NCBI GenBank assembly: GCA_949361645.1 | Contig: OX442420.1 | Location: 9,130,735-9,194,734 of the forward strand | DNA from: Spongilla lacustris | Lineage: Eukaryota > Porifera > Demospongiae > Spongillida > Spongillidae | Direction of reading: 5' to 3' | Length of the DNA stretch: 64,000 nt | Program-made: the position numbers and the translations under genes | The notes under the pieces: generated by a model | Seen by the model: the letters and a program-made list of their open reading frames with translations, nothing else | The model's database searches: none | Told to the model about the DNA's origin: nothing | Part shown: one piece after another, positions 5,799 to 63,108 of the stretch | How positions within the stretch are numbered: the stretch's first letter is position 1 | Layout: every line of letters starts with the position of its first letter

Positions 5799-5957
5799 GC
5801 CTTTGATTCCACAGGTGGTTGAGCACATACGGTATCAGTATGTACTTGAGTGCAACATCTCAGCCGTACGGTCTTAATATGCACGCATGAAATATAATGT
5901 ATGGGTAATTGAGATATGAGCCTACGGTACACTTTAGAGGAGACAGTTTTTCGAAGT

Positions 5958-6045
5958 TCCCCAGTGGCTCAGTCGGTTAGCGCGTCGTACTTATATGCAG
6001 TATTGAGTAATGCGAAGGTCGGGAGTTCGATCCTCCCCTGGGGAA
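5958..6045 (+). tRNA. tRNA-Ile (anticodon UAU) with a 14-nt intron
   Basis: The acceptor TCCCCAG (5958-5964) pairs perfectly with CTGGGGA (6038-6044), followed by discriminator A. The D arm is GCTC-AGTCGGTTA-GCGC with one mismatch. The anticodon stem TCGTA (5985-5989) pairs with TGCGA (6011-6015), one G-U. Loop C-T-TAT-A, then intron 5996-6009 after position 37. Variable loop AGGTC; T arm GGGAG-TTCGATC-CTCCC. Animal tRNA-Ile-UAU genes are commonly split at this site, so intron and anticodon support each other. All paired elements are intact and the A and B boxes are present, so it looks functional. Confidence 0.93.
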
Positions 6046-6048
6046 TAG

Positions 6049-7985: not shown

Positions 7986-8805
7986 TGGGACAGTTTCCGC
8001 GAAAATGTCCGAGTTTTATAACATTATAATCTTATAAAAATACTTCTTGTTTGAATCGCTATATCTTCCGAACGCTAAACGCTATCAACTTCCTATTTTC
8101 GAAAGTTCATATTACACCATTTTTCTATGATAAATTACATTTTGGAGTCTTGCACTTGCTCCATGCCAGTATTGCAACGTTCGATACCCGACCAGGTTCA
8201 AACCCGCCATAACTTTAGGTAGGAGTAATCAAATCGCTTCAAATTCGGTTTGTAGGTATAGAGGTCCTATACTTATCGATTTGTTCTGTTCGTTAATTTT
8301 TATGCCATCCGTTACGGAGATACAGTTGAACAAACTACGTCCACTTTATCCCGCTCGATTCCTGCCAATGATTTTGGCAAATCGCGTCCCGCTCAATGTA
8401 TGGGGAGGCGGTTGTTATATCATAGGCGCGAAACGAGCGGGAAAAAGTGCACGTAGTTTGTTCAACTGTATCTCCGTAACGGATGGCATAAAAATTAGCG
8501 AACAGTACAAATCGATAGGTATAGGACCTCTGTACCTACAAACCAAATTTGAAGCGATTTGATTACTCCTACCCAAAGTTATGACGGGTTTGAACCCGGT
8601 CGGGTATCGAACGTTGCAATACTGGCATGGAGCAAGTGCAAGACTCCAAAATGTAATTTATCATAGCGAAATGGTGTAGTATGAACTTTTGAAAATAGAA
8701 ATTCGATACCGTTTAGCGTTCGGAAGATATAGCGACTCAAACAAGAAGCATTTTTATAAGATTATAATGTTATAAAACTCGGACATTTTCGCGGAAACTG
8801 TCCCA
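7986..8805. mobile_element. E1: 820-bp palindromic foldback element
   Basis: Begins TGGGACAGTTTCCGCGAAAA and ends with its mirror ...CGGAAACTGTCCCA. The two roughly 400-bp halves are inverted copies meeting near 8396, with moderate divergence. Each half carries the family's terminal domain (GCACTTGCTCC..GCCAGTATTGCAACGTTCGA, GGTTCAAACC, TTCGCTTCAAATT-type and CGATTTGTTCTGTTCGTTAA blocks). Flanks are ATATAT microsatellite on both sides, so the target looks like TA. No transposase ORF. Confidence 0.85.
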
Positions 8806-8820
8806 TATATATATATATAA

Positions 8821-9240
8821 TTGGGACAGTTTCCGAGAAAATTGCGCTTCGTATATATATATAAAATGTTATAAAAATGCTTCTCGTTTGAATCGCTATA
8901 TCTTCCGAACGGTTAACGCTATCAATGTGCTATTGTCAACACTTCATACTACACCATTTCACTATGGTAAAATACATTTTGGAGTCTTGCACTTGCTCCG
9001 TGCCAGTATTGCAACGTTCGATACCCCACCGGGTTCAAACCTACCATAACTTTAGGTAGGAGTAAACAATTCGCTTCAAATTCGGTTTGTAGGTAGAGAG
9101 GTCCTATACCTATCGATTTGTTCTGTTCGTTAATTTTTATGTCATCGGTTACGGAGATACAGCGGCGCAAATTTGGTACAAGTTTCCCGCTCCAATTGCG
9201 CCGTTGTACGTGCGTGAAATACATGAATATGCAACTACTT
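8821..9240. repeat. terminal domain shared by E1-E4
   Basis: About 420-bp block at both ends of E2 (mirror 18,675-19,094) and E4 (19,936-20,340 and about 28,125-28,530). It also makes up essentially the whole of E1 and E3 in head-to-head form. Order of landmarks: TIR, AT-rich run, CGTTTGAATCGCTATAnCT, ACATTTTGGAGTCTTGCACT, GCAACGTTCGATACC, TAGGTAGGAGTAA, CGATTTGTTCTGTTCGTTAA, GGAGATACAG. In E2 and E4 it ends at a GCGGCGCAAA...CGGCGCAATT-type junction. Confidence 0.8.
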
Positions 9241-9549
9241 CCTGTGGGCTGAGACTTTGATAACTTATAGCCACACCTCTACTGCGCTAGCTAGCTAGCT
9301 TGGGTAAGTTTTTAAAAATCTATCGTCCCTGTCACAGTTGTTATTCGTTATCTTCCGTGTATAGATAAACGATGCGGCGAGATCCACTGAAGACAAGTTC
9401 GCAAGAGTTTCAATCCGCGGACGAGTTCGAGCGGTACGGATACGACGGTCGATATTCGACGAGGATGGGGAGGTTGAGAACGGTAGTGATGGCGGTCATA
9501 CCACTGACGATGGCGGTTGTAGGGAGTAAACAGCCGCTCAATCACTAAA
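9241..9549 (+). other. E2 subterminal segment with a conserved acidic reading-frame end
   Basis: After the terminal domain comes CTAGCTAGCTAGC and a segment that also exists in E4 (20,400-20,700) and in both mirror arms. One frame gives FDEDGEVENGSDGG then HTTDDGGCRE and stop (about 9,457-9,531); E4 gives the same peptide with V/I and E/K changes, other differences being silent. An overlapping frame has an ATG at 9372 (58 codons, MRRDPLKTSSQEF...). Neither resembles a known family. The first frame could be the end of a captured exon; this is tentative. Confidence 0.3.
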
Positions 9550-12500
9550 AGAGCCACTAGCCCCACCCCCACGCATGGGGCCTCACTACAGACAGCAGCC
9601 CAGCATAACCAACAGATGCCATGCAGAGCTACCAACCCGCACTACATATGGAATCACCCGCCCATATCAGACCCTACACAGGAGCCACAAACTAACCAAT
9701 GGGGTCACTACTAACCCTCTCGTACTAAGGGAAGCCACACATGCCCCCTCAGTGGAACTATTAGCCCTCACTGCAAATGGACTTAAGTACATGTATATAT
9801 AGCAACACCCCCTGGGTCCAGCCCCCCTCCCCGCCCCCCACTATTTATCGTTCACTGCAAGTTCAAGGGGCCAATGGAACCATTAGCCCTCACTGAAAGT
9901 GCCTGACACACTGGGACCAGCCACCACGGTCCTCCTACCCAATTACTGTCCTTCACTGCACGTAGAGTCAACACCGGACTCAGGGACCAATGGGGTCAGC
10001 TCCCATAGCTATCAATGCAAGTGAACTTAATAGCCCCACACTGCACATCCAGTTAGCACCAGCTGAGCCATTACAGATGGAGTTATCAGACTACCAACAA
10101 GGGAGCAACCAGCTGCCAAACACCCCAGGGTCATTGGGGGCCCCCAGAATAATCATGCTGGTGGAGATTCATACGACCAACCCCCACGGCCCTCTTGCCC
10201 ACTACCTGTCCTTCACTAGAGTCAACAGCCCAGCGATCAATGGGGTCAGCACCCTCAAAACAAGCGTTAATCCAAGTTAACTTAATAGCCCCACACTGCA
10301 CGTCCGGTTAGCACCAATGGAGCTATTACAGATGGAGTTATCAGACTACCAGCAAGGGAGCAAACAGCTGCCAAATACCCCAAGGTTGTTGGCCCTCCCA
10401 GAAATCATGCTGGTGGAGACTCACACTACAAGTGCCCCACACACTGGGACCAGCCCCCACGGCCCTCCTACCCACTACCTCACGTAGAGTCAACGGCCCA
10501 GGGACCAATGGGATCAGCTCCCTCACTGCAAACGGACAGTAACAATGGAATTATTAATGCAAGTGGACTTACACTGCATTCCAATTAGCACCAGTGAAGC
10601 CATTACAGATGGAATTATGTGACTGCCAGCAGGGAAGCCACCAGCTGCTAAACTCCCCGGAGTCATTGGGGGGCCCCACAATAATGCATGCTGGCCGGTG
10701 CATCAGTGGAGACGTCAGGCCTCACACTGCAAGTGGAAATGGCACCCCCCACAATTTCAGGGAGCCATAAACTGGAGCCACACATGCCCCCACTATCTAT
10801 GGAACCATTCACCCTCACTTAGCAGCCCCCACATATGGCGCCTTATCTCCCGCTACCTATCCTTCACTGCAAGTTTCAGCAGCCTTCTCAGCCTTCTCAC
10901 TACAAGTGCACCATACCAGTGACCATTCACTGCAAGTTCAAGGGGCCAATGGTCACACATCAAAACCACCATCCCTCATTGATCACTGCAAGCGAACTCA
11001 ACAACCGCACGAATACAATTGAATTTAATGCCTCCACAAGTGCTGCAAGTACTGGAGCCACCAGCTCTCTTACAGATGGGGTTACCAGACCCTGCATGCA
11101 GGGGTGCCTACACATGCAGGGGTCAATAGGTATGATGCCAGTGGAGATGCCAGCCGTCACACTACAAGCAATTAAGCAGTCCCCAAATTTCTGGGGAAGC
11201 CATGAACTACATGCACAGAACGTACACCCGCCCCTCTCCAAACACTACCAGTGGAACCATTAGCCGTCACTGAAAGTGCCCCACACACTGGGACCAGCCC
11301 CCATGGCCCTCCTACCCACTACCTCACGTAGAGTCAACGGCCCAGGGACCAATGGGATCAGCTCCCTCACTGCAAACGGACAGTAACAATGGAATGATTA
11401 ATGCAAGTGAACTTAAAAGCCCACACTGCATTCCAATTAGCACCAGTGGAGCCATTACAGATGGAGTTATCAGACTGCCAGCAGGGAAGACACCAGCTGC
11501 TAAACTCCCCATAGTCATTGAGGGGCTCCACAATTAATGCATGCTGGTGCATGGAGACGTCAGGCCTCACACTGCAAGTGGAAATGGCACCCCCCACAAT
11601 CTCAGGGAGCCATTAACTGGAGCCACACATGCCCCCAACCATTCACCCTCACTTAGCAGCCCCCACATATGGCGCCCTATCTCCCACTACCTATCCTTCA
11701 CTGCAAGTTTCAGCAGCCTTCTCAGCCTTCTCACTACAAGTGCACCATACCAGTGACCATTCACTGCAAGTTCAAGGGGCCAATGGTCACACATCAAAAT
11801 CACCATCCCCCATTGATCACTGCAAGTGAACTCAACAACCGCACGATACAAGTGAATTTAATGCCTCCACAAGTGCTGCAAGTACTGGAGCCACCAGCTC
11901 TCTTACAGATGAGGTTACCAGACCCTAGCTGCATTGCCAGCAGGGGTGCCCACACAAGCTCGTGTCAGTACTGATTGCCAGTGAAGATGCCAACCCTTGC
12001 ACTACAAGCCATGAACTACATGTACTGTGCATACACCTGCCCCTCTCCAAACACTATCAGTGGAACCATTAGCCCTCCTGCCGACTACCTGTCCTGCACT
12101 GCACGTTGAGTCAACGTACGGCCCAGGGACCAATGGGGTCACTGCAAGCAGATAGTATCATTGGAACCATTAATGCAAGTGACTTTTAATAGCCGCACAC
12201 AGCAGGTCCAGATAGCACCAGTAGCAACCAGCTGCCAAACACCCCAGGGTCATTGGGCCCCCCAGAATAAACATGCTGGTGGAAATTCACAGTGCGATTG
12301 GAATGGGCACCCCCCACAATATTAGAGGAGCCATGAACTGGAGCCCCCCCCTGCTATCCATGGAACCATTAACCATTAGCCCTCACTTAGCAAGGGCATT
12401 ATCTGTAGTACCTCCCACTACCTATCCTTCACTTCATGTTTCATCAGCCAAGATTACCAGCCATATCATGATCACTACAAGTGCACCACACCAATGAACG

Positions 12501-13950
12501 TTTACCGCAGGTTGAAGGGGCCAATGGGACCACTGGAGCCATTCTCACACATTAGAACCACCATCCCCCATAACTGCAAGTGAACTTAACAGCTGCACGA
12601 GACAAGTGAACTTACATTTAATACCTGGTTACCAGACCTGCACTGCCTACATAAGCTGGGGTCAATAGGTATGTGCCAGTGGAGATGCCAGCCATCGCAT
12701 CACATAAACTACATGAACTGTCCCCCCTCCATTAGCCCTCACTGCAAGTACCCCAAACACTGGGATCCGCCCCCACCGGCACGGCACTCCTGCCCTCTAT
12801 CTGCCCTTCACTGCACGCATTGAGTTAATGGCCCAGGGGTCAGCTATCTCACTGCAAGTGGACAGAACTATTCAGTAATGCAAGTGAACTTAATAGCCCC
12901 CACACTACAAGTCCAGTTAGCAATTACAGAGATGGAGTCATCAGACTGCCTGTGAGGGAGCCACCAGCTTGCATGCTGGTGGCTGGCTCCCTCACTCTCA
13001 CACTGCAATAGGAATACTAGGGGAGCCATCAACTGCATGGAGTCACACATACCCCCCACTACCCATGGAACCATTAACCCTCACTTAGCAGCCCCCACGT
13101 ACGGGGCTAGCCCCCACGGCCCTGTCTTACACTACCTATCCTTTACTGCAAGTTGTATCCAAGGTCCAGGAGCAAACATGCAAGGCCATCCCCCCACTCA
13201 CTAGCCCTCTCACTGCAAGCACACTTCCAATGGAACCACACACAACCAGCCCTCCCACGGGCACCCACCCACCCACCCCTCCCACGGGCACCCACCCCCA
13301 ACAGCCCTCTTACGTATGGAGTAATCAGACTGCCAGCAGGGGGAGCCACCAGCTGCCACATTACCGGTAGTCACAAAACTAGACCCCAGCATGTGGAGTG
13401 GAACCTTGAACTGGAACCACACATGCAATGGAGCTGTTAGCATGTGGACTTGTATGATGCAGGCCCCAAATGCTGGGGCCAGCTACAAATCCCCCCATCC
13501 TAGCCCCACACAGCTCCTCACTGCAAATGGAATCACCAGTCCCACTACCTGTGAAGCCATTAACCCCCACTTACACTGTCAGGGGAACCATCAACTACTA
13601 GTGGAGCTACACAAATGGGAACACCATGCACCACTGAAGCAACCTCCGTTTGTAGAGTGTACATGTCTACGTTTTGAACACATTTTGTGTTGTCGATCTG
13701 AACTAAATGTTTGTGCATGTACAGAGTTATTTTATCTGGGTTGGAAGTGAAGCCCATGCTATTAGTGGTGAATATCGTTACTAGCCCTATCGGTACTGAT
13801 TGCGGGTGGTCTGCACCCGTGGTTGGTTTATCTACACAAGCAGAAGGCTTTTTGAAAAAATAACAATAATGATAATAAAAACCCTACAGCTGGGAACTAC
13901 ATGTAGTGCTTTACATTGTTGAGGTACAGGTAGCAAAATATGTAAGGGCC
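9550..13950. repeat. E2 left-arm modules rich in CACTGCAAGTG
   Basis: Irregular tandem modules of several hundred bp. Recurring blocks are GGCCCAGGGACCAATGGGGT, CAGCTCCCTCACTGCAAG, TTAATGCAAGTGAACTTAAT, GATGGAGTTATCAGACTGCC, GGGAGCCACCAGCTGC, CCCCAGGGTCATTGGGGG and AATAATGCATGCTGGTGGAG. The decamer CACTGCAAGT or close variants recurs many times, roughly every 60-150 bp. The mirror arm spans 14,050-18,360. Long open frames reflect low stop density, not genes: frames shift between modules and no family is recognised. Confidence 0.75.
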
Positions 13951-16900
13951 ATTTTGGATGTGTGGCACGGTGAAGACATCAGAATTCATGACCACACAAG
14001 TGGAGTTGGTGGTCATAAATTCCGATATCTTCATCGTGCCAAATTGTAGCTGTGAATGCGCATGCAATTTATGTGACTTCTAAATGGCACTTACAAGTTT
14101 TGTAATTTGTACATGTATCTCAACAATGTAAGGCACTACACAATGACATAGTTCCCAGTAGCCTTCTGCTTGTCTATATAAACCAACCACGGGTGCAGAC
14201 CACCCGCAATCAGTACTGATAGGGCTGGTAACTATATTCACCACTAATAGCACGGGCTTCCCTTCCACCCTAGATAAAATAACTCTGTACATGCACAAAC
14301 ATTTAGTTCAGATCTAACACAAAATGTAAAAACGTAGACATGTACACTCTACAAACGGAGGCTGCATCAGTGGTGGTGTTCCCATTTGTCCAATGCGGGC
14401 TGGTAGCTCCACTAGTAGTTGATGGTTCCCCTGACAGTGTAAGTCCTTTTGTACTAGTAGTGTGGGGGTTAAAGGTTTCACAGGTAGTGGGTCTGGTAGT
14501 TCCATTTTCAGTGAGGAGCTGGTGGTTGTACTGTGTGGGGCTATAGGGAGCCATTGTGGCTGTCCCCAGTGTTTGTGGCCTGCACCATGTAAGTCCACAT
14601 GGAGTGAGAGCTAATGGTTCCATTGCATGTGTGGTTCCACTCCTCATGATGGGGTCTAGTTTTGTGAGGAACCACACTCACCCAGCACCCACCCCCAACA
14701 GCAGTGAGAGGGCTAGTGAGTGGGGGATGGCGTTGCACGTTAGCTCCTGGACCTCGGATACAACTTGCAGTAAAGGATAGGTAGTGAGAGACAGGGCCGT
14801 GGGGGCTAGCCCCGTATGTGGGGGCTGCTAAGTGAGGGCTAATGGTTCCATGGGTCCAGTTGATGGCTCCCCTAATATTCCTATTGCGGTGTGAGAGCTG
14901 GAGTCTCCACCAGCATGCATTATTGTGAGGCCCCCCAATGACCCTGCAGGGGTTTTTAGCATCTGCTGGCAGTCTGATGACTCCATCTCTGTAATTGCTA
15001 ACTGAACTTGTAGTGTGGGGGCTATTAAGTTCACTTGCATTGATAGTTCTGTCCACTTGCAGTGAGATAGCTGACCCCTGGGCCATTAACTCAATGCGTG
15101 CAGTGAAGGGCAGATAGAGGGCAGGAGTGCCGTGCCGGTGGGGGCGGATCCCAGTGTTTGGGGTACTTGCAGTGAGGGCTAATGGAGGGGGGACAGTTCA
15201 TGTAGTTTATGTGATGCGATGGCTGGCATCTCCACTGGCACATACCTATTGACCCCAGCTTATGTAGGCAGTGCAGGTCTGGTAACCAGGTATTAAATGT
15301 AAGTTCACTTGTCTCGTGCAGCTGTTAAGTTCACTTGCAGTTATGGGGGATGGTGGTTCTAATGTGTGAGAATGGCTCCAGTGGTCCCATTGGCCCCTTC
15401 AACCTGCGGTAAACGTTCATTGGTATGGTGCACTTGTAGTGATCATGATATGGCTGGTAATCTTGGCTGATGAAACATGAAGTGAAGGATAGGTAGTGGG
15501 AGGTACTACAGATAATGCCCTTGCTAAGTGAGGGCTAATGGTTAATGGTTCCATGGATAGCAGGGGGGGGGCTCCAGTTCATGGCTCCTCTAATATTGTG
15601 GGGGGTGCCCATTCCAATCGCACTGTGAATTTCCACCAGCATGTTTATTCTGGGGGGCCCAATGACCCTGGGGTGTTTGGCAGCTGGTTGCTACTGGTGC
15701 TATCTGGACCTGCTGTGTGCGGCTATTAAAAGTCACTTGCATTAATGGTTCCAATGATACTATCTGCTTGCAGTGACCCCATTGGTCCCTGGGCCGTACG
15801 TTGACTCAACGTGCAGTGCAGGACAGGTAGTCGGCAGGAGGGCTAATGGTTCCACTGATAGTGTTTGGAGAGGGGCAGGTGTATGCACAGTACATGTAGT
15901 TCATGGCTTGTAGTGCAAGGGTTGGCATCTTCACTGGCAATCAGTACTGACACGAGCTTGTGTGGGCACCCCTGCTGGCAATGCAGCTAGGGTCTGGTAA
16001 CCTCATCAGTAAGAGAGCTGGTGGCTCCAGTACTTGCAGCACTTGTGGAGGCATTAAATTCACTTGTATCGTGCGGTTGTTGAGTTCACTTGCAGTGATC
16101 AATGGGGGATGGTGATTTTGATGTGTGACCATTGGCCCCTTGAACTTGCAGTGAATGGTCACTGGTATGGTGCACTTGTAGTGAGAAGGCTGAGAAGGCT
16201 GCTGAAACTTGCAGTGAAGGATAGGTAGTGGGAGATAGGGCGCCATATGTGGGGGCTGCTAAGTGAGGGTGAATGGTTGGGGGCATGTGTGGCTCCAGTT
16301 AATGGCTCCCTGAGATTGTGGGGGGTGCCATTTCCACTTGCAGTGTGAGGCCTGACGTCTCCATGCACCAGCATGCATTAATTGTGGAGCCCCTCAATGA
16401 CTATGGGGAGTTTAGCAGCTGGTGTCTTCCCTGCTGGCAGTCTGATAACTCCATCTGTAATGGCTCCACTGGTGCTAATTGGAATGCAGTGTGGGCTTTT
16501 AAGTTCACTTGCATTAATCATTCCATTGTTACTGTCCGTTTGCAGTGAGGGAGCTGATCCCATTGGTCCCTGGGCCGTTGACTCTACGTGAGGTAGTGGG
16601 TAGGAGGGCCATGGGGGCTGGTCCCAGTGTGTGGGGCACTTTCAGTGACGGCTAATGGTTCCACTGGTAGTGTTTGGAGAGGGGCGGGTGTACGTTCTGT
16701 GCATGTAGTTCATGGCTTCCCCAGAAATTTGGGGACTGCTTAATTGCTTGTAGTGTGACGGCTGGCATCTCCACTGGCATCATACCTATTGACCCCTGCA
16801 TGTGTAGGCACCCCTGCATGCAGGGTCTGGTAACCCCATCTGTAAGAGAGCTGGTGGCTCCAGTACTTGCAGCACTTGTGGAGGCATTAAATTCAATTGT

Positions 16901-19107
16901 ATTCGTGCGGTTGTTGAGTTCGCTTGCAGTGATCAATGAGGGATGGTGGTTTTGATGTGTGACCATTGGCCCCTTGAACTTGCAGTGAATGGTCACTGGT
17001 ATGGTGCACTTGTAGTGAGAAGGCTGAGAAGGCTGCTGAAACTTGCAGTGAAGGATAGGTAGCGGGAGATAAGGCGCCATATGTGGGGGCTGCTAAGTGA
17101 GGGTGAATGGTTCCATAGATAGTGGGGGCATGTGTGGCTCCAGTTTATGGCTCCCTGAAATTGTGGGGGGTGCCATTTCCACTTGCAGTGTGAGGCCTGA
17201 CGTCTCCACTGATGCACCGGCCAGCATGCATTATTGTGGGGCCCCCCAATGACTCCGGGGAGTTTAGCAGCTGGTGGCTTCCCTGCTGGCAGTCACATAA
17301 TTCCATCTGTAATGGCTTCACTGGTGCTAATTGGAATGCAGTGTAAGTCCACTTGCATTAATAATTCCATTGTTACTGTCCGTTTGCAGTGAGGGAGCTG
17401 ATCCCATTGGTCCCTGGGCCGTTGACTCTACGTGAGGTAGTGGGTAGGAGGGCCGTGGGGGCTGGTCCCAGTGTGTGGGGCACTTGTAGTGTGAGTCTCC
17501 ACCAGCATGATTTCTGGGAGGGCCAACAACCTTGGGGTATTTGGCAGCTGTTTGCTCCCTTGCTGGTAGTCTGATAACTCCATCTGTAATAGCTCCATTG
17601 GTGCTAACCGGACGTGCAGTGTGGGGCTATTAAGTTAACTTGGATTAACGCTTGTTTTGAGGGTGCTGACCCCATTGATCGCTGGGCTGTTGACTCTAGT
17701 GAAGGACAGGTAGTGGGCAAGAGGGCCGTGGGGGTTGGTCGTATGAATCTCCACCAGCATGATTATTCTGGGGGCCCCCAATGACCCTGGGGTGTTTGGC
17801 AGCTGGTTGCTCCCTTGTTGGTAGTCTGATAACTCCATCTGTAATGGCTCAGCTGGTGCTAACTGGATGTGCAGTGTGGGGCTATTAAGTTCACTTGCAT
17901 TGATAGCTATGGGAGCTGACCCCATTGGTCCCTGAGTCCGGTGTTGACTCTACGTGCAGTGAAGGACAGTAATTGGGTAGGAGGACCGTGGTGGCTGGTC
18001 CCAGTGTGTCAGGCACTTTCAGTGAGGGCTAATGGTTCCATTGGCCCCTTGAACTTGCAGTGAACGATAAATAGTGGGGGGCGGGGAGGGGGGCTGGACC
18101 CAGGGGGTGTTGCTATATATACATGTACTTAAGTCCATTTGCAGTGAGGGCTAATAGTTCCACTGAGGGGGCATGTGTGGCTTCCCTTAGTACGAGAGGG
18201 TTAGTAGTGACCCCATTGGTTAGTTTGTGGCTCCTGTGTAGGGTCTGATATGGGCGGGTGATTCCATATGTAGTGCGGGTTGGTAGCTCTGCATGGCATC
18301 TGTTGGTTATGCTGGGCTGCTGTCTGTAGTGAGGCCCCATGCGTGGGGGTGGGGCTAGTGGCTCTTTTAGTGATTGAGCGGCTGTTTACTCCCTACAACC
18401 GCCATCGTCAGTGGTATGACCGCCATCACTACCGTTCTCAACCTCCCCATCCTCGTCGAATATCGACCGTCGTATCCGTACCGCTCGAACTCGTCCGCGG
18501 ATTGAAACTCTTGCGAACTTGTCTTCAGTGGATCTCGCCGCATCGTTTATCTATACACGGAAGATAACGAATAACAACTGTGACAGGGACGATAGATTTT
18601 TAAAAACTTACCCAAGCTAGCTAGCTAGCGCAGTAGAGGTGTGGCTATAAGTTATCAAAGTCTCAGCCCACAGGAAGTAGTTGCATATTCATGTATTTCA
18701 CGCACGTACAACGGCGCAATTGGAGCGGGAAACTTGTACCAAATTTGCGCCGCTGTATCTCCGTAACCGATGACATAAAAATTAACGAACAGAACAAATC
18801 GATAGGTATAGGACCTCTCTACCTACAAACCGAATTTGAAGCGAATTGTTTACTCCTACCTAAAGTTATGGTAGGTTTGAACCCGGTGGGGTATCGAACG
18901 TTGCAATACTGGCACGGAGCAAGTGCAAGACTCCAAAATGTATTTTACCATAGTGAAATGGTGTAGTATGAAGTGTTGACAATAGCACATTGATAGCGTT
19001 AACCGTTCGGAAGATATAGCGATTCAAACGAGAAGCATTTTTATAACATTTTATATATATATACGAAGCGCAATTTTCTCGGAAACTGTCCCAATTATAT
19101 ATATATA

Positions 19108-19931
19108 TGGGAAAGTTTACGAGAAAAGGGACCTAGCGTTTATTATAAAAAAGTATAATAAAAATGCATTACGTTTGATTTGCCATAACTTCCGAACAGT
19201 TAACGCTATCACCTTCCTATTTTCAACACTTCATACTGCACCATTTCTCTATGGTAAAATACATTTTGGAGTCTTGCACTTGCTCCGTGTCAGTATTGCA
19301 ACGTTCGATACTCCACTGGGTTCAAACCCGCCATAACTTTCGGTAGGAGTAATCAATTCGCTTCAAATTCGGTTTGTAGGTAGAGAGGTCCTATACCTAT
19401 CGATTTGTTCTGTTCGTTGATTTTTATGCCATCCATTACGGAGATACAGTTGAACAAATTACGTGCCAATTTTCGCGCTCAATTCGCGCCAATGATTTGG
19501 GCAAATTGCGTTCCGCTCAATGTATGGGGAGGCGGGGATTATAACATTGGCGCGAATCAAGCGGGAAAACGTGCACGTAGTTTGTTCAACTGTATCTCCG
19601 TAACGGATGGCATAAAAATTAACGAACAGAACAAATCGATAGGTATAGGACCTCTCTACCTACAAACCGAATTTGAAGCGAATTGATTACTCCTACCGAA
19701 AGTTATGGCGGGTTTGAACCCAGTGGAGTATCGAACGTTGCAATACTGACACGGAGCAAGTGCAAGACTCCAAAATGTATTTTACCATAGAGAAATGGTG
19801 CAGTATGAAGTGTTGAAAATAGGAAGGTGATAGCGTTAACTGTTCGGAAGTTATGGCAAATCAAACGTAATGCATTTTTATTATACTTTTTTAGAATAAA
19901 CGCTAGGTCCCTTTTCTCGTAAACTTTCCCA
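19108..19931. mobile_element. E3: 824-bp palindromic foldback element
   Basis: Starts TGGGAAAGTTTACGAGAAAA and ends ...CGTAAACTTTCCCA. This is a variant TIR with three changes from E1, E2 and E4 present at both ends. The halves are near-identical inverted copies of the family terminal domain meeting near 19,520. The left flank is TA microsatellite (19,095-19,107), and only TATA (19,932-19,935) separates it from E4. Confidence 0.87.
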
Positions 19932-19935
19932 TATA

Positions 19936-22900
19936 TGGGACAGTTTCCGAGAAAATGATACTTCGCATATATAAATATAAAGTTATAAAAATGCCTCGCG
20001 TTTGAATCGCTATAACTCCAGAACAATACATGATATTAACTTTCTATTTTCAACACATCATACTACACCATTGCTCTATAATAAAATACATTTTGGGGCC
20101 TTGCATATGCTCCGTGCCAGTATTGCAACGTTCGATACCCCAGCGGGTTCAAACCCACCATAACTTTAGGTAGGAGTAATCAATTCGCTTCAAATTCGGT
20201 TTGTAGGTAGAGAGGTCATATACCTATCGATTTGTTCTGTTCGTTAATTTTTATGTCATCCGTTGCGGAGATACAGCGGCGCAAAGTTGGTACAAGTTTC
20301 CCGCTCGAATCGCGCCGTTGTACGTGCGTGAACTGCTTCCATACCAAATCATGAATATGCAAATACTTCCTGTGGGCTGAGACTTGGATAACTTATAGCC
20401 ACACCTATATATACTGCGCTAGCTAGCTAGCTGGAGTGGGTAAGTATTTAATCTATCGTCCCTGTTACAGTTGATATTCGTTATCTTCTGTGTATAGATA
20501 AACGATATGCATAGCGACGTCCACTGAAGACAAGCTCGTAAGAGGTTCAATCGGCGGACGAGTTCGAGCCGGTACGGTTACGACGAGATATTCAAGATAC
20601 TTTCGATGAGGATGGGGAGATCGAGAACGGTAGTGACGGCGGTCATACCACTGACGATGGTGGTTGTAGGAAGTAAACAGCCGCTAAATCACCACCGGCC
20701 CCGCCCCCCACATATGGGCCATTGCAAGTCCAGACAGCAGCCCTGCAAAACCAACAGATGCAATGCAGAGCCACCAACCCGCACTACCTAGGGAACCACC
20801 CGCCCATATCAGACCCTACACAGGAGCTACCAACTAACCAATGGGGTCAGCCTCCACAGTACAAGTAGAGATACTTATACTAACCCTCTCCCTGCAAATG
20901 GAGTTGGCAGCCCTCACAATTTCAGGGCAGCCATGAACTACATGTACATGTACCAAGGGAAGTCACACATGCCCCCTCCCAACACTACCAGTGGAACTAC
21001 ATGTATTAGCCCTCACTGCAAATGGCCTTACATGTACATGTAAGCAGAACCCCATTGGTCCAGCCCCCTCCCCTCCCCACCCCCACTATTGATTATTCTC
21101 TGCAAGTTCAAGCTTAAGGGGCCAATGGAGCCATCCCCACACAGCAAAATCACCAGTCCCCATCACTACAGCCTTGCAAACTTTCAAAACAATACCTCCA
21201 CACTGCAAGTAGTGGAGCCACCAGCTCTCTTACGGATGGGGTTACCAGACCTTGCACTGCCAGTATGGGAGCCCTCACAAGCAGGGGTCAATAGATGCCA
21301 GTGGAGATGCCGCCCTCACACTACAAGTAGTCCCCATAAAGTACTGTACGTACACCCTCCCCTCTCCAAACAGTGGAACCATAAGCCCTCAATGCACGTG
21401 CTCCACACACTGAGACCAGCCACCTGGACCAACGGAGTCAGCTCCCTCACTGCAAGTGGACAGTATCATTGGACCATTAATGCAAGTGAACTTAATAGCC
21501 ACACGATACAAGTGAACTAACATGTAATACCTCCAGCACACTGCAAGTACTGGAGCCACCATCTCTCTTACAGATGGGGTTACCAGACCCTGCACTGCCA
21601 ATGGAGATGCCAGCCATCACACTACAAGCAATTAAGCAGTCCCCAAATTTCAGGGGAAGCCATGAACTACATATGCACTGAACGTACACCCGCCCTTTCA
21701 CTGCAAGTGCCCTACACACTGGGACCAGCCCCCACGGCCCTCCTGCCCACTACCTGTCTTTCACTGCAGGTAGAGTCAACGGCCCAGGGACAAATGGGGT
21801 CAGCTCCCTCACTGCAAGCAGACAGTAACATTGTAACTATTAATGCAAGTGAACTTAAAAGCCCACACTGCATTCCAGTTAGCACCATTGGAGCCATATT
21901 TCAGATGGAGTTATCAGACTGCCAGCAGGGAAGCCACCAGCTGCTAAACTCCCCGGGGTCATTGGGGGGTCCCACAATAATGCATACTGGTGGATGGAGT
22001 CACACTGCATATGGAAATGGCACCCCGCACAATTTTAGGGAGCCACGAACTGGAGCCACACATGCCCCCACTATCTATGGAACCATTCACCCTCACTAGC
22101 AGCCCCCACATATGACACCCTATCTCCCACTACCTATTATCATTCACTGCAAGTTTCAGCAGCCTTCTCAGCCTTCTCAATACAAGTGCACCATACCAAT
22201 GACCATTCACTGCAAGTTCAAGGGGCCAATGGTCACACATCAAAACCACCATCCTCCATTGATTACTGCAAGTGAACTAAACAACCGCACGATGCAAGTG
22301 AATTTCCATTAAATGTAAATGCCTCCACAATGCAAGTAGTGGAGCCACCAGCTCTGTTACAGATGGGGTTACCAGACCCTGCATTTGGTCAATGCCAGCA
22401 GGGGTGCCCACACAAGCTGGGGTCAGTAGGTATTTGATGCCAGTAGAGATGCTAACCCTCACACTACAACCCATGAACTACATGTACTGTACGTACACCT
22501 GCCCATCTCAAAACACTACCAATGGAACCATTAGGCCTCCTGCCCTGCACTACCTGCATGTCCTTCACTGCACGTTGAGTCAACATACGGCCCAGGGACC
22601 AATGGCGTCAGCTCCCTTACTGCAAGTGGACAGTATCATTGGAATCATTAATGCAAGTGAACTTAATAGCCGCACATTACAGGTCCCGTTAGCACCAGCG
22701 GTTCTTGGTCTGTCAGCTAAGGAGCCACCAGCTGCTAAACACCCCAGGGTCATTGGCGCCCCCAGAATAATCATGCTGGTGGAAACTCACAACAGTGGAA
22801 TTGGAATTGGTAACCCCCACAATATTAGGGGAACCATGAACTGGAGCCCCCCGCTATCCATGGAACCATTAGCCCTCACTTAGCAGGAGTACCTCCCACT

Positions 22901-25900
22901 ACATGTACCTATCCTTCACTGCATGTTTCATCTGCCAAGATTACCAGCCGTATCACTACAAGTGCACCATACCCGTGAACATTTACCGCAGGTTCAAGGG
23001 GCCAATGGGACCACTGGAGCCATTCTCACACATTAGAACCACCATCCCCCATAACTGCAAGTGAACTTAACAGCCGCACAAGACAAGTGAACTTACATTT
23101 AATGCCTACACACTGCTACTAGTAGAGCCACCAGCTGCCACATTACCGGTCCTCACAAAACTAGACCCCATCATGAGGAGTGGAACCACACATGCAATGG
23201 AGCCATTAGCTCTCACTGCATGTGGACTAACTTACATGGTGCAGGCCCCAAACACTGGGGCCAGCCACAATGGCCCCCTATCCGCTTAACCTCACACAGT
23301 ACAACCACCAGCTCCTCAATGCAAATGGAACCACCAGACCCACTACCTGTGAAACCTTTAACTCCCTACCTGTGAAACTGACCAGTCATTAACCCCCACA
23401 CTACAAGAGGACTTACACTGTCAGGAGAACCATCAACTACTAGTGGAGCTACCAGCCCGCATTGGACAAATGGGAACACCATGCACCACTGAAGCAGCCT
23501 CCGTTTGTAGAGTGTACATGTATACGTTTTGAACACATTTTGTGTTGTAGATCTGAACTAAATGTTTGTGCATGTACAGAGGCATGTACAGAGTTATTTT
23601 ATCTGGGGTGGAAGTGAAGCCCATGCTGTTAGTGGTGAATATATTTACCAGCCCTATCGGTACTGATTGCGGGTGGTCTGCACCCGTGGTTGGTTTATAT
23701 ACACAAGCAGAGAGCTTTTTGGAAGATAAAAAATAAGAATAAAAACCCCTACAGCTGGGAACTACATGTAGTGCTTTACATTGTTGAGGTACACTTAGCA
23801 AAACATGTAAGTGCCATTTTGGATGTGTGTCACGGTGAAGACATCAGAATTCATGACCGCACAAGTGAAGTTGGTGGTCATGAATTCCAATGTCTTCACC
23901 GTGCCAAATTATAGCTGTGACTGCGCATGCAATTTATGTGACATTCTAAGTGGCACTTACAAGTTTTGCAACTTGTACATGTATCTCAACACTACACAGT
24001 TCCCAGTAGGCTTTTTTCTTTTCAAAAAGCCTTCTGCTTGTCTATATAAACCAACCACGGGTGCAGACCACCCGCAATCAGTACCGATAGGGCTGGTAAC
24101 TATATTCACCACTAACAGCATGGGCTTCACTTCCACCCCAGATAAAATAACTCTGTACATGCCTCGGTACATGCACAAACATTTAGTTCAGATCTACAAC
24201 ACAAAATGTGTTCAAAACGTACACATGTACACTCTACAAACGGAGGCTGCTTCAGTGGTGCATGGTGTTCCCATTTGTCCAATGCGGGCTGGTAGCTCCA
24301 CTAGTAGTTGATGGTTCTCCTGACAGTGTAAGTTCTCTTGTAGTGTGGGGGTTAATGACCAGTTTCACAGGTAGGGAGTTAATGGTTTCACAGGTAGTGG
24401 GTCTGGTGGTTTCATTTGCAGTGAGGAGCTGGTGGTTGTACTGTGTGGGGTTAAGTGGATAGGGGGCCATTGTGGCTGGCCCCAGTGTTTGGGGCCTACA
24501 CCATGTAAGTCCCCATGCAGTGAGAGCTAATGGCTCCATTGCATGTGTGGTTCCACTCCTCATGATGGGGTCTAGTTTTGTGAGGACTGGTAATATGGCA
24601 GCTGGTGGCTCCCCTGCTGGCAGTCTGATTACTCCATACGTAAGAGGGCTGTTGGGGGTGGGTGCTGGGTGAGTCTGGTTCCACTGGTATTGTGTGTTTG
24701 CAGTGAGAGGGCTAGTGAGTGAGGGATGGCATTGCACGTTCACTCCTGGATCTCGGATACAACTTGCAGTAAAGGATAGGTAGTGAGAGATAGGGCCGTG
24801 GGGGCTAGCCCCGTATGTGGGGACTGCTAAGTGAGAGCTAATGGTTCCATGGGCATGTGTGACTCCAGTTGATGGCTCCCCTAATATTGTGTGGGGTGCC
24901 GAATTCCTATTGCCGTGTGAGAGCTGGAGTCTCCACCAGCATGCATTATTGTGGGGGGCCCCCAACGACCCTGCAGAGGGTTTTAGCAGCTGGTGGCTCC
25001 CTCGTTGGACAGGTGCTAACTGGACTTGTTGTATGGGGCTATTAAGTTCACTTGCAATAATGCGTCTGTCCGCTTGTAGTGAGGGAGCTGACCCCTGGGC
25101 CAATAACTCAACATGCAGTGAAGGGGCAGGAGGGCTGTGGGGGCGGGTCCCAGTGTGTAGGGTAGTTGCAGTGAGGACTAATGGTTCAAATGGTAGTGTT
25201 TGGAGAGGGGCGGGTGTATGTTCAGTGCATGTAGTTCATGGCTTTCCCTGAAATTTGGGGACTACTTGTAGTGCGATGGCTGGCATCTCCACTGGCATAT
25301 ACATATTGACCCCAGCTTATGTGGGCAGTGCAGGTCTGGTAACCCCATCTGTGAGAGAGCTGGTGGCTCTACTATTAGCAGTGTGTAGGCATTAAATGTA
25401 AGTTCACTTGTCTTGTGCGGCTGTTAAGTTCACTTGCAGTTATGGGGGATGGTGGTTCTAATGTGTGAGAATGGCTCCAGTGGTCCCATTGGCCCCTTGA
25501 ACCTGCGGTAAATGTTCACGGGTATGGTGCACTTGTAGTGATATGGCTGGTAATCTTGACTGATGAAACATGCAGTGAAGGATAGGTACATGTAGTGGGA
25601 GGTACTCCTGCTAAGTGAGGGCTAATGGTTCCATGGATAGCGGGGGGCTCCAGTTCATGGTTCCCCTAATATTGTGGGGGTTACCAATTCCAATTCCACT
25701 GTTGTGAGTTTCCACCAGCATGATTATTCTGGGGGCCCCAATGACCCTGGGGTGTTTAGCAGCTGGTGGCTCCTTTGCTGACAGACCAAGAACCGCTGGT
25801 GCTAACCGGACCTGCAGTGTGGGGCCATTAAGTTCACTTGCATTAATGATTCCAATGATACTGTCCGCTTGCAGTGAGGGAGCTGACGCCATTGGTCCCT

Positions 25901-28530
25901 GGGCCGTATGTTGACTCAACGTGCAGTGAAGGACATGCAGGTAGTGCAGGGCAGGAGGCCTAATGGTTCCATTGGTAGTGTTTTGAGATGGGCAGGTGTA
26001 CGTACAGTACATGTAGTTCATGGGTTGTAGTGTGAGGGTTGGCATCTCCACTGGCATCATATACCTACTGACCCCAGCTTGTGTGGGCACCCCTGCTGGC
26101 ATTGATCGAATGCAGGGTCTGGTAACCCCATCTGTAACAGAGCTGGTGGCTCCACTACTTGCAGTGTGGAGTGTGGAGGCATTTACATTTAATGGAAATT
26201 CACTTGCATCGTGCGGCTGTTGAGTTCACTTGCAGTGATCAATGGGGGATGGTGGTTTTGATGTGTGACCATTGGCCCCTTGAACTTGCAGTGAATGGTC
26301 ACTGGTATGGACTGTACTTGTAGTGTGTGGGGGCTGCTAAGTGAGGGTGAAATGGTTCCATAGATAGTGGGGGCATGTGTGGCTCCAGTTCGTGGCTCCC
26401 TAAAATTGTGCGGGGTGCCATTTCCACTTGCAGTGTGACTCCATCCACCAGTATGCATTATTGTGGGACCCCCCAATGACCCCGGGGAGTTTAGCAGCTG
26501 GTGGCTTTCCTGCTGGCAGTCTGATAACTCCATCTGGAATATGGCTCCAATGGTGCTAACTGGAATGCAGTGTGGGCTTTTAAGTTCACTTGCATTAATA
26601 GTTACAATGTTACCGTCTGTTTGCAGTGAGGGAGCTGACCCCATTTGTCCCTGAGCCGTTGACTCTACTTGCAGTGAAGGACTAGTAGTGGGCAGGAGGG
26701 CCGTGGGGGGCTGGTCCCAGTTTGTGGGGCACTTGCAGTGAAAGGGCGGGTGTACGTTCAGTGCATATGTAGTTCATGGCTTCCCCTGAAATTTGGGGAC
26801 TGCTTAATCGCTTGTAGTGTGATGGCTGGCATCTCCATTGGCATCATACCTACATGTACATTGTATTGACCCCAGCTTGTGTGGGCACCCCTGCTGGCAG
26901 TGCAGGGTCTGGTAACCCCATCTGTAAGAGAGATGGTGGCTCCAGTACTTGCAGTGTGCGGGAGGTATTAAATGTTAGTTCACTTGTATCGTGTGGCTAT
27001 TAAGTTCACTAGCATTAATGGTCCAATGATACTGTCCACTTGCAGTGAGGGAGCTGACCCCATTGGTCCAGATGGCTGGTCTCAGTGTGTGGAGCACTTG
27101 CAGTGTAGGCTTATGGTTTCACTGTTTGGAGAGGGGCGGGTGTATGTACAGTACTTTATGGGGACTACTTATAGAGTGAGGGCGGCATCTCCACTGGCAT
27201 CTATTGACCCCTGCATGTGAGGGCTCCCCTACTGGCAGTGCAGGGTCTGGTAACCACATCCGTAAGAGAGCTGGTGGGGAGGTATTATTTTGAAAGTTTG
27301 CAAGGCTGTAGTGATGGGGACTGGTGGTTTTGCTGTGTGGGGATGGCGCCAATGGTCCCTTGAACTTGCAGAGAATAATCAATAGTGGGGGTGGGGAGGG
27401 GAGGGGGCTGGACCAATGGGGTTCTGCTTACATGTACATGTAAGGCCATTTGCAGTGAGGGCTAATACATGTAGTTCCACTGGTAGTGTTGGGAGGGGGC
27501 ATGTGTGACTTCCCTTGGTACATGTACATGTAGTTCATGGCTGCCCTGAAATTGTGAGGGCTGCCAACTCCATTTGCAGGGAGAGGGTTAGTATAAGTAT
27601 CTCTACTTGTACTGTGGAGGCTGACCCCATTGGTTAGTTGGTAGCTCCTGTGTAGGGTCTGATATGGGCGGGTGGTTCCATAGGTAGTGCGGGTTGGTGG
27701 CTCTGCATTGCATCTGTTGGTTTTGCAGGGCTGCTGTCTGGACTTGCAATGGCCCATATGTGGGGGGCGGGGCCGGTGGTGATTAAGCGGCTGTTTACTT
27801 CCTACAACCACCATCGTCAGTGGTATGACCGCCGTCACTACCGTTCTCGATCTCCCCATCCTCATCGAAAGTATCTTGAATATCTCGTCGTAACCGTACC
27901 GGCTCGAACTCGTCCGCCGATTGAACCTCTTACGAGCTTGTCTTCAGTGGACGTCGCTATGCATATCGTTTATCTACACAGATAATAACGAATATCAACT
28001 GTGACAGGGGCGATAGATTAAATACTTACCCAGCTAGCTAGCTAGCGCAGTATACATAGGTGTGGCTATAAGTTATCCAAGTCTCAGCCCACAGGAAGTA
28101 GTTGCATATTCATGTAATTTGGTATGGAAGCGGTTCACGCACGTACAACGGCGCAATTCGAGCGGGAAACGTGTACCAACTTTGCGCCGCTGTATCTCCG
28201 TAACGGATGACATAAAAATTAACGAACAGAACAAATCGATAGGTATATGACCTCTCTACCTACAAACCGAATTTGAAGCGAATTGATTACTCCTACCTAA
28301 AGTTATGGTGGGTTAGAACCCGGTGGGGTATCGAACGTTGCAATACTGGCACGGAGCAAGTACAAGGCCCCAAAATGTATTTTACTATAGAGCAATGGTG
28401 TAGTATGAAGTGTTGAAAATAGGAAGTTAATATCGTTTATCGTTCGGGAGTTATAGCGATTCAAACGCGAGGCATTTTTATAACTTTATATTTATATATG
28501 CGAAGTATCATTTTCTCGGAAACTGTCCCA
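19936..28530. mobile_element. E4: 8.6-kb giant palindromic element with unequal arms
   Basis: Termini TGGGACAGTTTCCGAGAAAA ... GGAAACTGTCCCA. The hairpin tip lies at CACGGTGAAGACATCAGAAT... (23,831-23,858) against ...TGTCTTCACCGTG (23,875-23,902). The left arm is 3.9 kb and the right 4.7 kb; the right has an extra block of about 0.75 kb (about 24,610-25,370). Module content parallels E2 (CACTGCAAGT-rich, CCACCAGCTG blocks). Flanks are TATA on the left and TATAATTATAATTATAAT on the right. No transposase ORF. Confidence 0.87.
24610..25370. repeat. segment of the E4 right arm missing from the left arm
   Basis: The left arm passes directly from the TAATGCCTACACACTGCTAC block through CCACCAGCTG to CCACATTACCGG (23,100-23,150). 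In the right arm the mirror versions of these two blocks are separated by about 0.75 kb, and both edges carry CAGCTGGTGG/AGCTGGTGG. The equivalent block is present in both E2 arms, so loss from the left arm by recombination between short direct repeats is the simpler reading. Confidence 0.65.
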
Positions 28531-43957: not shown

Positions 43958-44947
43958 TTAAATAGTTACACATTTAGTAGCATTTTTAACCATTTGGTTC
44001 GGTATATCACTGATGGCATCTGATATGGCTTGTTTGAGGTCTGGGATAGTTTTGGGGCTCTGTGCGTACACAATTCCTTTCAGGTAACCCCAAAGCCAAA
44101 AATCCAAAGGTGTCAAATCCGGACTTCTTGCAGGCCATGGAATTGGCCCTCCACGGCCCATCCATCTGTCCTCGAAGGTGTTGTTTAGCCATTCTGTGAC
44201 TTCATGAAAATAGTGAGATGGTGCTCCATCTTGTTGAAATATTATTTCCTCAATTTTGTCCTCATCAAGAGATGATTGGAGATATGGCCAAAGGCGTTTT
44301 AACATTCCTAGATATGACTTTCCTGTCACTGTGCCCTGTTCAAAAAAGTATGGTCCTATGATTTCATCATTAAGGAGTCCACACCAGACCATGATGCCTT
44401 CCTTTTTATATGCCCTGTCAACTGTTTTTCGAGGATTGGTTTTGGCCCATGTGATTGCATTATGGATGTTTACTTTACCATTTAATTTAAATATTGCCTC
44501 ATCCGTCCACAAAATATTCTCCTCATATTCATTGTTGTACTCGACCTTCTCCAACCATTCCTCTGCCCATTCCACTCTTTTCTCGTGGTCTCCTTCTTTC
44601 AGTTCCTGAACCATTCTGCTCCTGTAAGCTTTCATCTTCAAGTCTTTTCTGACAATTGTTCGTACTGTGCTATATGGTATATCTGTGGCACATGATATTC
44701 GCCTCAATGATAACTCAGGGTCATCATTGATTTTCCTATCTATAGCCTGTATGTTGACTGGACTTCTTCCACTTCTCCTCCTCCCTGAATGCTTACAATC
44801 ATCTGTGCCACCAGTGTCATAGAATCGTTTCACTGTCCTTAGCACAGTGGATGGGCTTAGAGTGCCATGTCCAGGATACTTCACCTTGAACTGTCTAACT
44901 GTTTCACTTGCATTTCTCGTTTCTGCATAAAGCATCACAATAGTCAC
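43958..44947 (-). CDS. Tc1/mariner-superfamily transposase, DD41D type
   Basis: Uninterrupted frame with the IS630/Tc1/mariner layout. The N-terminal helix-turn-helix half reads YAETRNASETVRQFKVKYPG, SPSTVLRTVKRFYDTG, GRRRSGRSPVNIQAID, LSLRRISCATDIPYSTVRTI. The catalytic half has first Asp in ILWTDEAIF, second in IIFQQDGAPSH and third in ARSPDLTPLDFWLWGYLKG. I count 41 residues between the second Asp and the Asp of PLDF, hence DD41D. FQQDGA and FWLWGYLK resemble the arthropod rosa-type/DUF4817-containing branch. The longest frame opens with GTG at 44,947; the first ATG after the TATA box is at 44,935 (325 residues), and no ATG lies between, so I prefer that start. All three acidic residues are intact, so it may be active. 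It is the only transposase with an intact frame in the window and lies inside E5. Confidence 0.93.
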   Translation of the reverse strand: MTIVMLYAETRNASETVRQFKVKYPGHGTLSPSTVLRTVKRFYDTGGTDDCKHSGRRRSGRSPVNIQAIDRKINDDPELSLRRISCATDIPYSTVRTIVRKDLKMKAYRSRMVQELKEGDHEKRVEWAEEWLEKVEYNNEYEENILWTDEAIFKLNGKVNIHNAITWAKTNPRKTVDRAYKKEGIMVWCGLLNDEIIGPYFFEQGTVTGKSYLGMLKRLWPYLQSSLDEDKIEEIIFQQDGAPSHYFHEVTEWLNNTFEDRWMGRGGPIPWPARSPDLTPLDFWLWGYLKGIVYAQSPKTIPDLKQAISDAISDIPNQMVKNATKCVTI

Positions 44948-62760: not shown

Positions 62761-63108
62761 ATGCCATTTAATTAGGCCATTTTAAATGTGATAATAGTTT
62801 CCCGTCCGGACCTTTTACCAAAGCTTGTTTGATTTGGAGGAGGATCGATTTGAATTCGCGATGCCACGCAGCATTGTTTCTGAGAAGAACCCATACTGAT
62901 GTCACGTATAATTATCAAATTTACTTAGGAATCCTAACACTGAATACAATTCCCGGTGACAATAAACAACTATACAACATAAAAATTTTTCGTTCTGGCA
63001 TACGGTCTAAAACCGCGGAATTCCGCAGTGCAGTGCCTCAATCATGCATATTACTTGTATTCGTCCTGGTTTGAAACTTGACACCTCGCCACACTGCAAG
63101 ATGCACTG
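62761..63108. other. upstream region of receptor copy 2
   Basis: AT-rich, then ordinary sequence with a frame from 62,829 that has no family resemblance. The 21-bp minisatellite found upstream of copy 1 is absent, so upstream regions of the two receptors differ. ATG at 63,101 is followed at once by a stop. Confidence 0.4.

Follow-up and report, generated by a model that had tools for sequence, protein, structure and literature searches.

The question raised by this locus is how four palindromic elements with common ends, two of them giant, came to stand in a row within TA microsatellite, and which enzyme moves such elements. The window, i.e. the whole stretch of 64,000 nucleotides that was analysed, is C6:9130735-9194734 of the 248.6-Mb Spongilla lacustris assembly, over which the genome searches were run. 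Eight matches to the 20-bp end, four per orientation, delimited the elements E1, E2, E3 and E4, and self-BLAST revealed inverted repeats throughout them. The two methods agreed, confirming the four palindromic elements with common 20-bp ends that the earlier note had placed here:

7986-8805, no strand: E1, minimal palindromic element, 820 bp, ends TGGGACAGTTTCCGCGAAAA
8806-8821: A/T spacer between E1 and E2, 16 bp
8822-19093: E2, giant palindromic element, 10,272 bp, ends TGGGACAGTTTCCGAGAAAA, flanks AT/AT
8822-13216, + strand: left arm of E2, its outer ~0.6 kb being the family terminal domain
13371-14667, no strand: core of E2, an imperfect palindrome, 73.5% self-inverted (self-BLAST)
14701-19093, - strand: right arm of E2, mirroring the left arm
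19094-19107: A/T spacer between E2 and E3, 14 bp
19108-19931, no strand: E3, minimal palindromic element, 824 bp, ends TGGGAAAGTTTACGAGAAAA
19932-19935: spacer between E3 and E4, 4 bp, TATA
19936-28530, no strand: E4, giant palindromic element, 8,595 bp
23109-24627, no strand: inner palindromic core of E4 (self-BLAST)

The sizes measured from the ends are in accordance with one family in two sizes within this chain. The spacers, described earlier as TA-rich, consist of A and T only; of the lengths given for them (15, 13 and 4 bp) the third was correct, but the first two measured 16 and 14 bp. Pfam scans of the ORFs within the E2 and E4 arms gave no match, and these arms look like degenerate repeats, not genes.

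The symmetry of the elements was compared arm against arm. The description of each as a palindrome down to a short loop fitted E1 and E3, with arm identities of 91.2% and 92.5%, but not E2 and E4, in which an imperfect palindromic core of ~1.3-1.5 kb was found. The E2 arms are 97.8% identical overall: from the ends inward identity is 100% over the first ~3 kb and stays at 99-100% up to ~4.05 kb, and in the core it is 73-97% by window. The E4 arms are 97.1% identical with 1,656 unaligned columns, and the inner palindrome sits ~365 bp off centre. Among the other giants, G5 resembles E2 (98-100% over most of its length, outside an imperfect core), and G6 (9,116 bp) is less symmetric, its arms being 89.7% identical. 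Foldback elements, as a structural class, have long terminal inverted repeats (TIRs) that contain internal repeats and enclose little unique DNA. The giants E2, E4 and G3-G7 show this architecture, which supports the earlier view of foldback elements as the nearest structural class.

The genome search with the 20-bp end, proposed in the earlier note, revealed a large family. The exact end was found 899 + 902 times and its reversed control 0 + 0 times, which excludes occurrence by chance; with up to one mismatch the counts were 1923 + 1900 = 3,823 ends genome-wide, and again 0 in the reversed control. The family and its shared ends can thus be regarded as established at the sequence level. Tabulation of copies by length, using the first 100 of the 3,823 ends plus one variant end (the left end of G6, from L031/L040), delimited 36 elements on C1 in three size classes: 26 of 406-828 bp, 7 of 8.2-10.5 kb and 3 of 14-23 kb. 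None of the 36 falls between 829 and 8,221 bp, and 33 carry the same end variant at both sides. The left 415 bp of E1 matched at ~100% at all 40 scored places, the window's own included (best 40 of 3,421 candidates), which looks like a recent burst; the two arms of E1 itself differ, although this left part is ~100% identical across the scored places. An 801-bp piece of the E2 arm occurs as inverted pairs of similar spacing, known by position, at C11:6894471/6902215 (~100%) and C17:6405394/6413483 (98%). The family is large and has been recently active.

The insertion sites were analysed in 51 insertions with distinct flanks, which are not all independent, as L039/L041 and L047/L050 look, by their flanks, like copies of one insertion each. 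The same 2 bp stood on each side in 48 of them (43 TA, 3 AA, 1 TT and 1 AT), and three had no 2-bp match. Duplications of 3, 5, 7, 9 or 11 bp were found in 0 of the 51, and matches of 8 bp (12/51) and 10 bp (10/51) occurred as TA repeats give. Shuffled flank pairs also matched at 2 bp in 76%, because most targets are TA; since TA targets match by shuffling too, the eight insertions that are not TA/TA are the informative cases. Five of these eight had matching 2 bp, compared to 18% by shuffling, and duplications of 7-11 bp were found in none. For L050, a search for the empty site with the joined flanks listed 40 matches, all of them half matches. Insertions in G3, considered as an empty site of the family, proved to be unrelated elements with 11-bp duplications.

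Chains of such elements are an established feature of the genome. Two ends stand back to back across 2-32 bp at 342 places (control 0); 47 of the 50 listed junctions, counted by eye, have A/T-only spacers, and for 16 of the 36 C1 elements another recognised end is no more than 60 bp away. A chain at C1:2120399-2185083 comprises six elements in 64.7 kb with gaps of 18, 10, 10, 14 and 4 bp; two giants were covered whole, two autonomous-type elements in part, and an E3-type and an 8.8-kb element by their ends. The alternation of small and giant elements, which holds within E1-E4, is therefore not a rule, as this chain runs 14.3, 8.3, 9.1, 23.3, 0.8 and 8.8 kb. Only ~1,600 (TA)6 tracts preceded by G or C were counted per strand; the TA tracts adjoining the elements mostly fall outside this count, whose control was itself a TA-tract pattern and of no use. 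This scarcity of targets means that repeated insertion can explain the chains. The small number of TA tracts also weakens the case for self-targeting, another candidate cause.

A probable autonomous relative with the same ends, which the earlier note had proposed to look for, was reached through the giant G4. Each arm of G4 holds the relic of a coding sequence; used as a query against the genome, this relic gave open frames of up to 908 aa. One such frame lies 2.3 kb inside the element A1, which starts with a family end at C1:2152190, separated from the neighbouring element by 10 bp of TA, and whose outer 638 bp are 83% identical to the G4 end. The right end of A1 was located, as predicted, exactly at C1:2175452-2175471, with no other end among those listed in between. 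In A1, of which 12.5 of 23.3 kb were covered, the gene is followed by an array of 71-bp repeats at least 7.7 kb long, and the small ORFs besides it reach up to 149 aa. A0, at C1:2120399-2134740, is a sister copy; its right end, which follows an array of ~48-bp repeats, shares 90% identity with the A1 left end over 477 bp.

Other autonomous-type elements were covered by their ends and gene parts. Each end was taken at its best 40 places, and 33 of the 40 left ends have a partner, the closest right end in facing orientation, at 11.7-34.3 kb; further ends may intervene, and the right-end positions are estimates, as the query lacked the last 140 bp. One right end, C1:4844855, overlaps a neighbouring end, and that element is probably truncated. 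A frame of at least 880 aa lies inside 17 of the 33 paired elements, among the gene matches listed. With 51 of 1,343 candidates scored, the gene was found at 98-100% identity at 30 places, 23 of them uninterrupted by a stop over the matched part, and at 88% identity at 21 further places, all open, 20 of the 21 with equal score. Between the two gene subfamilies dN/dS is 0.176 over 498 codons, which indicates purifying selection. Relatives in Ephydatia reach 86% identity over part of the length of the ~890-aa protein. Judged from sequence, the probable autonomous relative is the set of ~12-34-kb elements that share the family ends and in many cases carry an open ~890-aa gene. C13:1899831-1923135 was at first taken for a palindrome of 23 kb whose two arms each carry the gene, a reading that was dropped; a right end at ~C13:1914760 makes it a ~14.9-kb element followed by a second left end.

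The ~890-aa protein matched the Pfam family DUF7869 (PF25273) with 61.5 bits against a curated cut-off of 26, and this is the sole Pfam family above cut-off. The match is found in 14 of 14 relatives at E <= 1. Pfam gives DUF7869 no transposase annotation and assigns it no function; the family is found in sponges as well as in short environmental contigs. C-terminal C2H2 zinc fingers lie below the Pfam cut-offs in the query protein. The structure model (mean pLDDT 59) predicts a DDE-recombinase core of RNase H type with three invariant aspartates, Asp453, Asp532 and Asp574, as candidate catalytic residues. Such a core with a D, D, D/E triad characterizes DDE-type cut-and-paste transposons, and the model would place the protein among them. 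Foldseek gave no match in the PDB at E <= 0.001 (best 0.0077, IstA), and VIA-align covered just the top 1,000 of Foldseek. Mos1 was the best fold match outside viruses; the RNase H fold is widespread. Domains of Mutator, mariner, hAT and P transposases were absent from the 14 relatives at E <= 1 among the matches listed (25 of 28 Pfam families), a profile scan that can miss remote kin of the MULE transposase domain. The single exception was a match of one relative to DDE_Tnp_ISAZ013 (PF07592) at E = 0.14, a family to which the Zator transposase is akin. Among the same listed matches there was no PHD finger, the fingers listed being C2H2. Sequence searches of the PDB gave only zinc fingers and weak chance-level matches, searches of PHROGs and NCBIfam gave nothing useful, and 18 pattern matches in viral contigs yielded no confirmed relative. 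We infer that the DUF7869 protein is the transposase of the E1-E4 family. The name DUF7869 was absent from the literature searched, mostly without subscription papers; its status as undescribed is provisional, with Repbase outside the comparison.

Known systems share some traits with this family. According to the available text of PMC5907723, the SaTar elements of guayule, rice, sorghum and citrus are MULEs that also form non-nested chains joined by TA microsatellite, with autonomous relatives in the same clusters. They are described as small plant elements whose duplications measure 8-11 bp outside microsatellites and are sometimes absent within them, in contrast to the 2-bp duplications, DUF7869 protein and 8-10-kb palindromes observed here. 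MuTAnT of Medicago likewise targets TA microsatellites and has short foldback-like non-autonomous copies beside an autonomous MULE copy, but uses a mudrA-like transposase and 9-bp duplications (PMC4486113, available text). In Drosophila virilis, the large foldback element Tetris, with tandem repeats inside its TIRs, has ends in common with the short MITE DAIBAM; this system is apparently non-autonomous, and the abstract mentions neither an autonomous copy nor TA chains (PMC4079207). Galileo of Drosophila also shows TIR growth by tandem repeats and by uptake of internal sequence into both TIRs, but has a P-superfamily transposase, 7-bp flanking sequences and TIRs of at most ~1.26 kb (PMC3573991, available text); 7-bp duplications were found in 0 of the 51 insertions here. 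Rehavkus has a minisatellite before its 3' TIR, but also a 9-bp duplication and a PHD finger, and duplications of both MULEs and Rehavkus are longer than 2 bp (PMC6446971, available text). None of the 51 insertions has the 9-bp duplication of Rehavkus, and of the 8-11-bp range of Mutator-like elements 0 of 51 matched at 9 and at 11 bp. The TA duplication of Tc1/mariner elements is seen in 43 of the 51 (TA/TA), but AA, TT and AT also occur. IS481EU (PMC10045372, available text) had no bearing on the family. A DUF7869 enzyme has no mention in the available parts of the literature on SaTar, MuTAnT, Tetris, Galileo and Rehavkus. The earlier note gave neither an autonomous element nor a target duplication, and its author knew of no described family with this layout; as far as these sources go, SaTar offers a precedent for the TA chains and Tetris/DAIBAM one for the large foldback element with a small MITE.

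The origin of the palindromes was examined against two other explanations. Sequencing or assembly artefacts, from missed hairpin adapters or collapsed inverted repeats, could leave arms as alike as the outer ~3 kb of E2, but they are extremely improbable here, as a complete copy of E4, its twin, lies at C1:8591411-8600011 (99.6% identity over 8,601 columns) and repeats the same palindrome with the same left/right differences. In the outer 1.5 kb, E4 left is 99.8% identical to twin left and 97.1% to twin right, which argues that the palindrome was inherited whole; it is mobile in one piece, not an artefact. The left part of the E4 core has an inverted partner within 300 bp at 38 of 40 scored places on 16 contigs (best 40 of 501 candidates), and the arms of E1 and E3 differ by 7-9%. 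Private arm differences, whose absence from all four elements the earlier note would have counted against the palindromes, are present in E1, E3 and E4. The gene bears on how one arm came to mirror the other. It was seen once in the 33 paired long elements, with no second match inside among the candidates scored, whereas stop-bearing relics are doubled: 60 of 75 fall into 30 convergent pairs spaced by under 16 kb, beside one same-strand and two divergent neighbours. The 75 relics come from 150 gene-match rows, listed down to C21:4173474 with three further stop-bearing rows, C1:4508860, C4:5553216 and C3:7467645, left out, and G4 alone among the pairs was covered in full. Such pairs are the pattern expected if a gene-bearing arm was duplicated in mirror image; at C4:967251-977337, known by position, two right ends face each other 10.1 kb apart. 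We infer that the giant palindromes arise from mirror copying of one arm of a longer element. Snapback synthesis is put forward tentatively as the way of mirroring, as priming at the core would give the near-identical arms and mismatched core of E2 and G5. Ordinary gene conversion between existing inverted repeats, a competing possibility held just as tentatively, would give the same pattern by tracts entering from the ends, and fixed arm differences can persist in a line under it, as in E4. It requires two arms beforehand, however, and the gene is single in the long elements and its relics double in G4 and the 30 pairs, so that a duplication step was needed at least once. Mirroring is not continuous, because the E4 arms keep side-specific differences, and E4 demonstrates that a palindrome, once formed, can be copied with its differences intact.

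Two further explanations concern the chains and the enzyme. The chains could result from homologous recombination of circular intermediates at microsatellites, as the SaTar authors themselves proposed (PMC5907723, available text). This is improbable here, as 2-bp flanks match in five of the eight insertions without TA on both sides, and repeated strikes on few targets are expected with ~1,600 (TA)6 tracts per strand. Somewhat less improbable, but still unlikely, is that the elements belong to a known superfamily, either Mutator-like as SaTar and MuTAnT or Tc1/mariner, and that the DUF7869 protein is a passenger, an accessory or a divergent member. TA-tract chains are known for plant MULEs (PMC5907723, available text), and the TA duplication and the fold match to Mos1 point to Tc1/mariner. 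Against it stand the duplication lengths (3, 5, 7, 9 and 11 bp in 0/51; 7-11 bp in 0/8 not TA/TA), the lack of a Mutator, mariner, hAT or P domain among the matches listed for the 14 relatives, bar DDE_Tnp_ISAZ013 at 0.14, and the absence, over the 12.5 kb of A1 covered, of further ORFs longer than 149 aa. The DUF7869 core, moreover, is itself predicted to resemble a DDE catalytic domain.

E1-E4 are probably non-autonomous members of a TA-microsatellite-targeting DDE family moved by a DUF7869 transposase, in which the giants consist of mirrored arms. The ~890-aa transposase with its DUF7869 core and C-terminal C2H2 zinc fingers, supplied by autonomous relatives of ~12-34 kb, would move E1-E4 in trans. 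Insertion would be by cut-and-paste, mainly into TA microsatellites, with a 2-bp target duplication that is mostly TA. Each insertion would keep TA on both sides, which leaves the tract open to further copies and lets non-nested chains grow. During repair after excision, snapback synthesis primed at the imperfect core hairpin would copy one arm back in mirror image; the hairpin would keep its old mismatches, and all that is copied outward from it would become identical. The mirrored element would then spread as a unit. Minimal elements would arise likewise, with only the terminal ~390 bp retained. The wider proposal, that DUF7869 proteins form an undescribed eukaryotic DDE superfamily with a 2-bp TA duplication and that in this genome its elements mirror themselves via the core hairpin, is possible but remains provisional in our judgement.

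If true, autonomous elements would turn into giant mobile palindromes by copying back a 4-5-kb arm and would build chains of tens of kb. A function is thereby proposed for a Pfam domain of unknown function, and the open, very recently copied genes are suited to testing it. Independently of that proposal, palindromes of 8-10 kb, normally unstable DNA, are seen to spread as units in an animal genome. The single-gene elements and their relatives with a relic in both arms offer natural before-and-after material on the origin of long palindromes in vivo. TA-tract chains occur here in a sponge with a protein other than that of the plant SaTars, which suggests that non-nested stacking follows from the choice of target and is not tied to one transposase family. 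Elsewhere in the window, a GPCR-like ORF was observed at 55953-56972, with a 57% match to Ephydatia muelleri.

DNA that appears to be mirrored was also observed at other loci of the genome. On another contig of the same assembly, a pair of autonomous-type right ends face each other at a distance of 10.1 kb (G000:C4:967251-977337); no left end was found there among the 40 best matches, and the stretch is probably a right-arm palindrome. At a further locus (L038:2781-3977), the palindrome of a family-like element of 853 bp (99.8%) continues beyond each end of the element for about 172 bp, thus the flanking DNA itself appears to be mirrored. The giant G3 (L032/L033), an E4-type copy, carries two insertions with 11-bp target duplications; these are unrelated to the family and probably belong to other MITE families.

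The DUF7869 match was also found in proteins of about 520-655 aa from environmental contigs of 2-5 kb (P0053-P0059, P0061, P0062, P0076-P0080 and P0082), having 30-39% identity to the family's protein. Several of these are represented by dozens of member sequences, and they are perhaps compact relatives in other hosts.

To the right of E4, a second element with giant TIRs was observed. The features in the window are:

28975-53981, second giant-TIR element, inverted repeats of about 6.1 kb (86%)
43958-44947 (-), Tc1/mariner-like transposase ORF within this element
55953-56972 and 63105-64000, GPCR-like ORF, two inverted copies (93% identity)
5957-6046, predicted tRNA-Ser-like gene, 90 bp (Rfam tRNA, 47.2 bits)

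The inverted repeats of the second element contain 181-bp tandem repeats, and both of its ends read TA|CAGGGTGATCCAAAAGTC. The Pfam scores of the transposase-like ORF were slightly under the cut-offs. The GPCR-like ORF is of a kind known from Ephydatia. The anticodon of the predicted tRNA was given as 'act' by ARAGORN.
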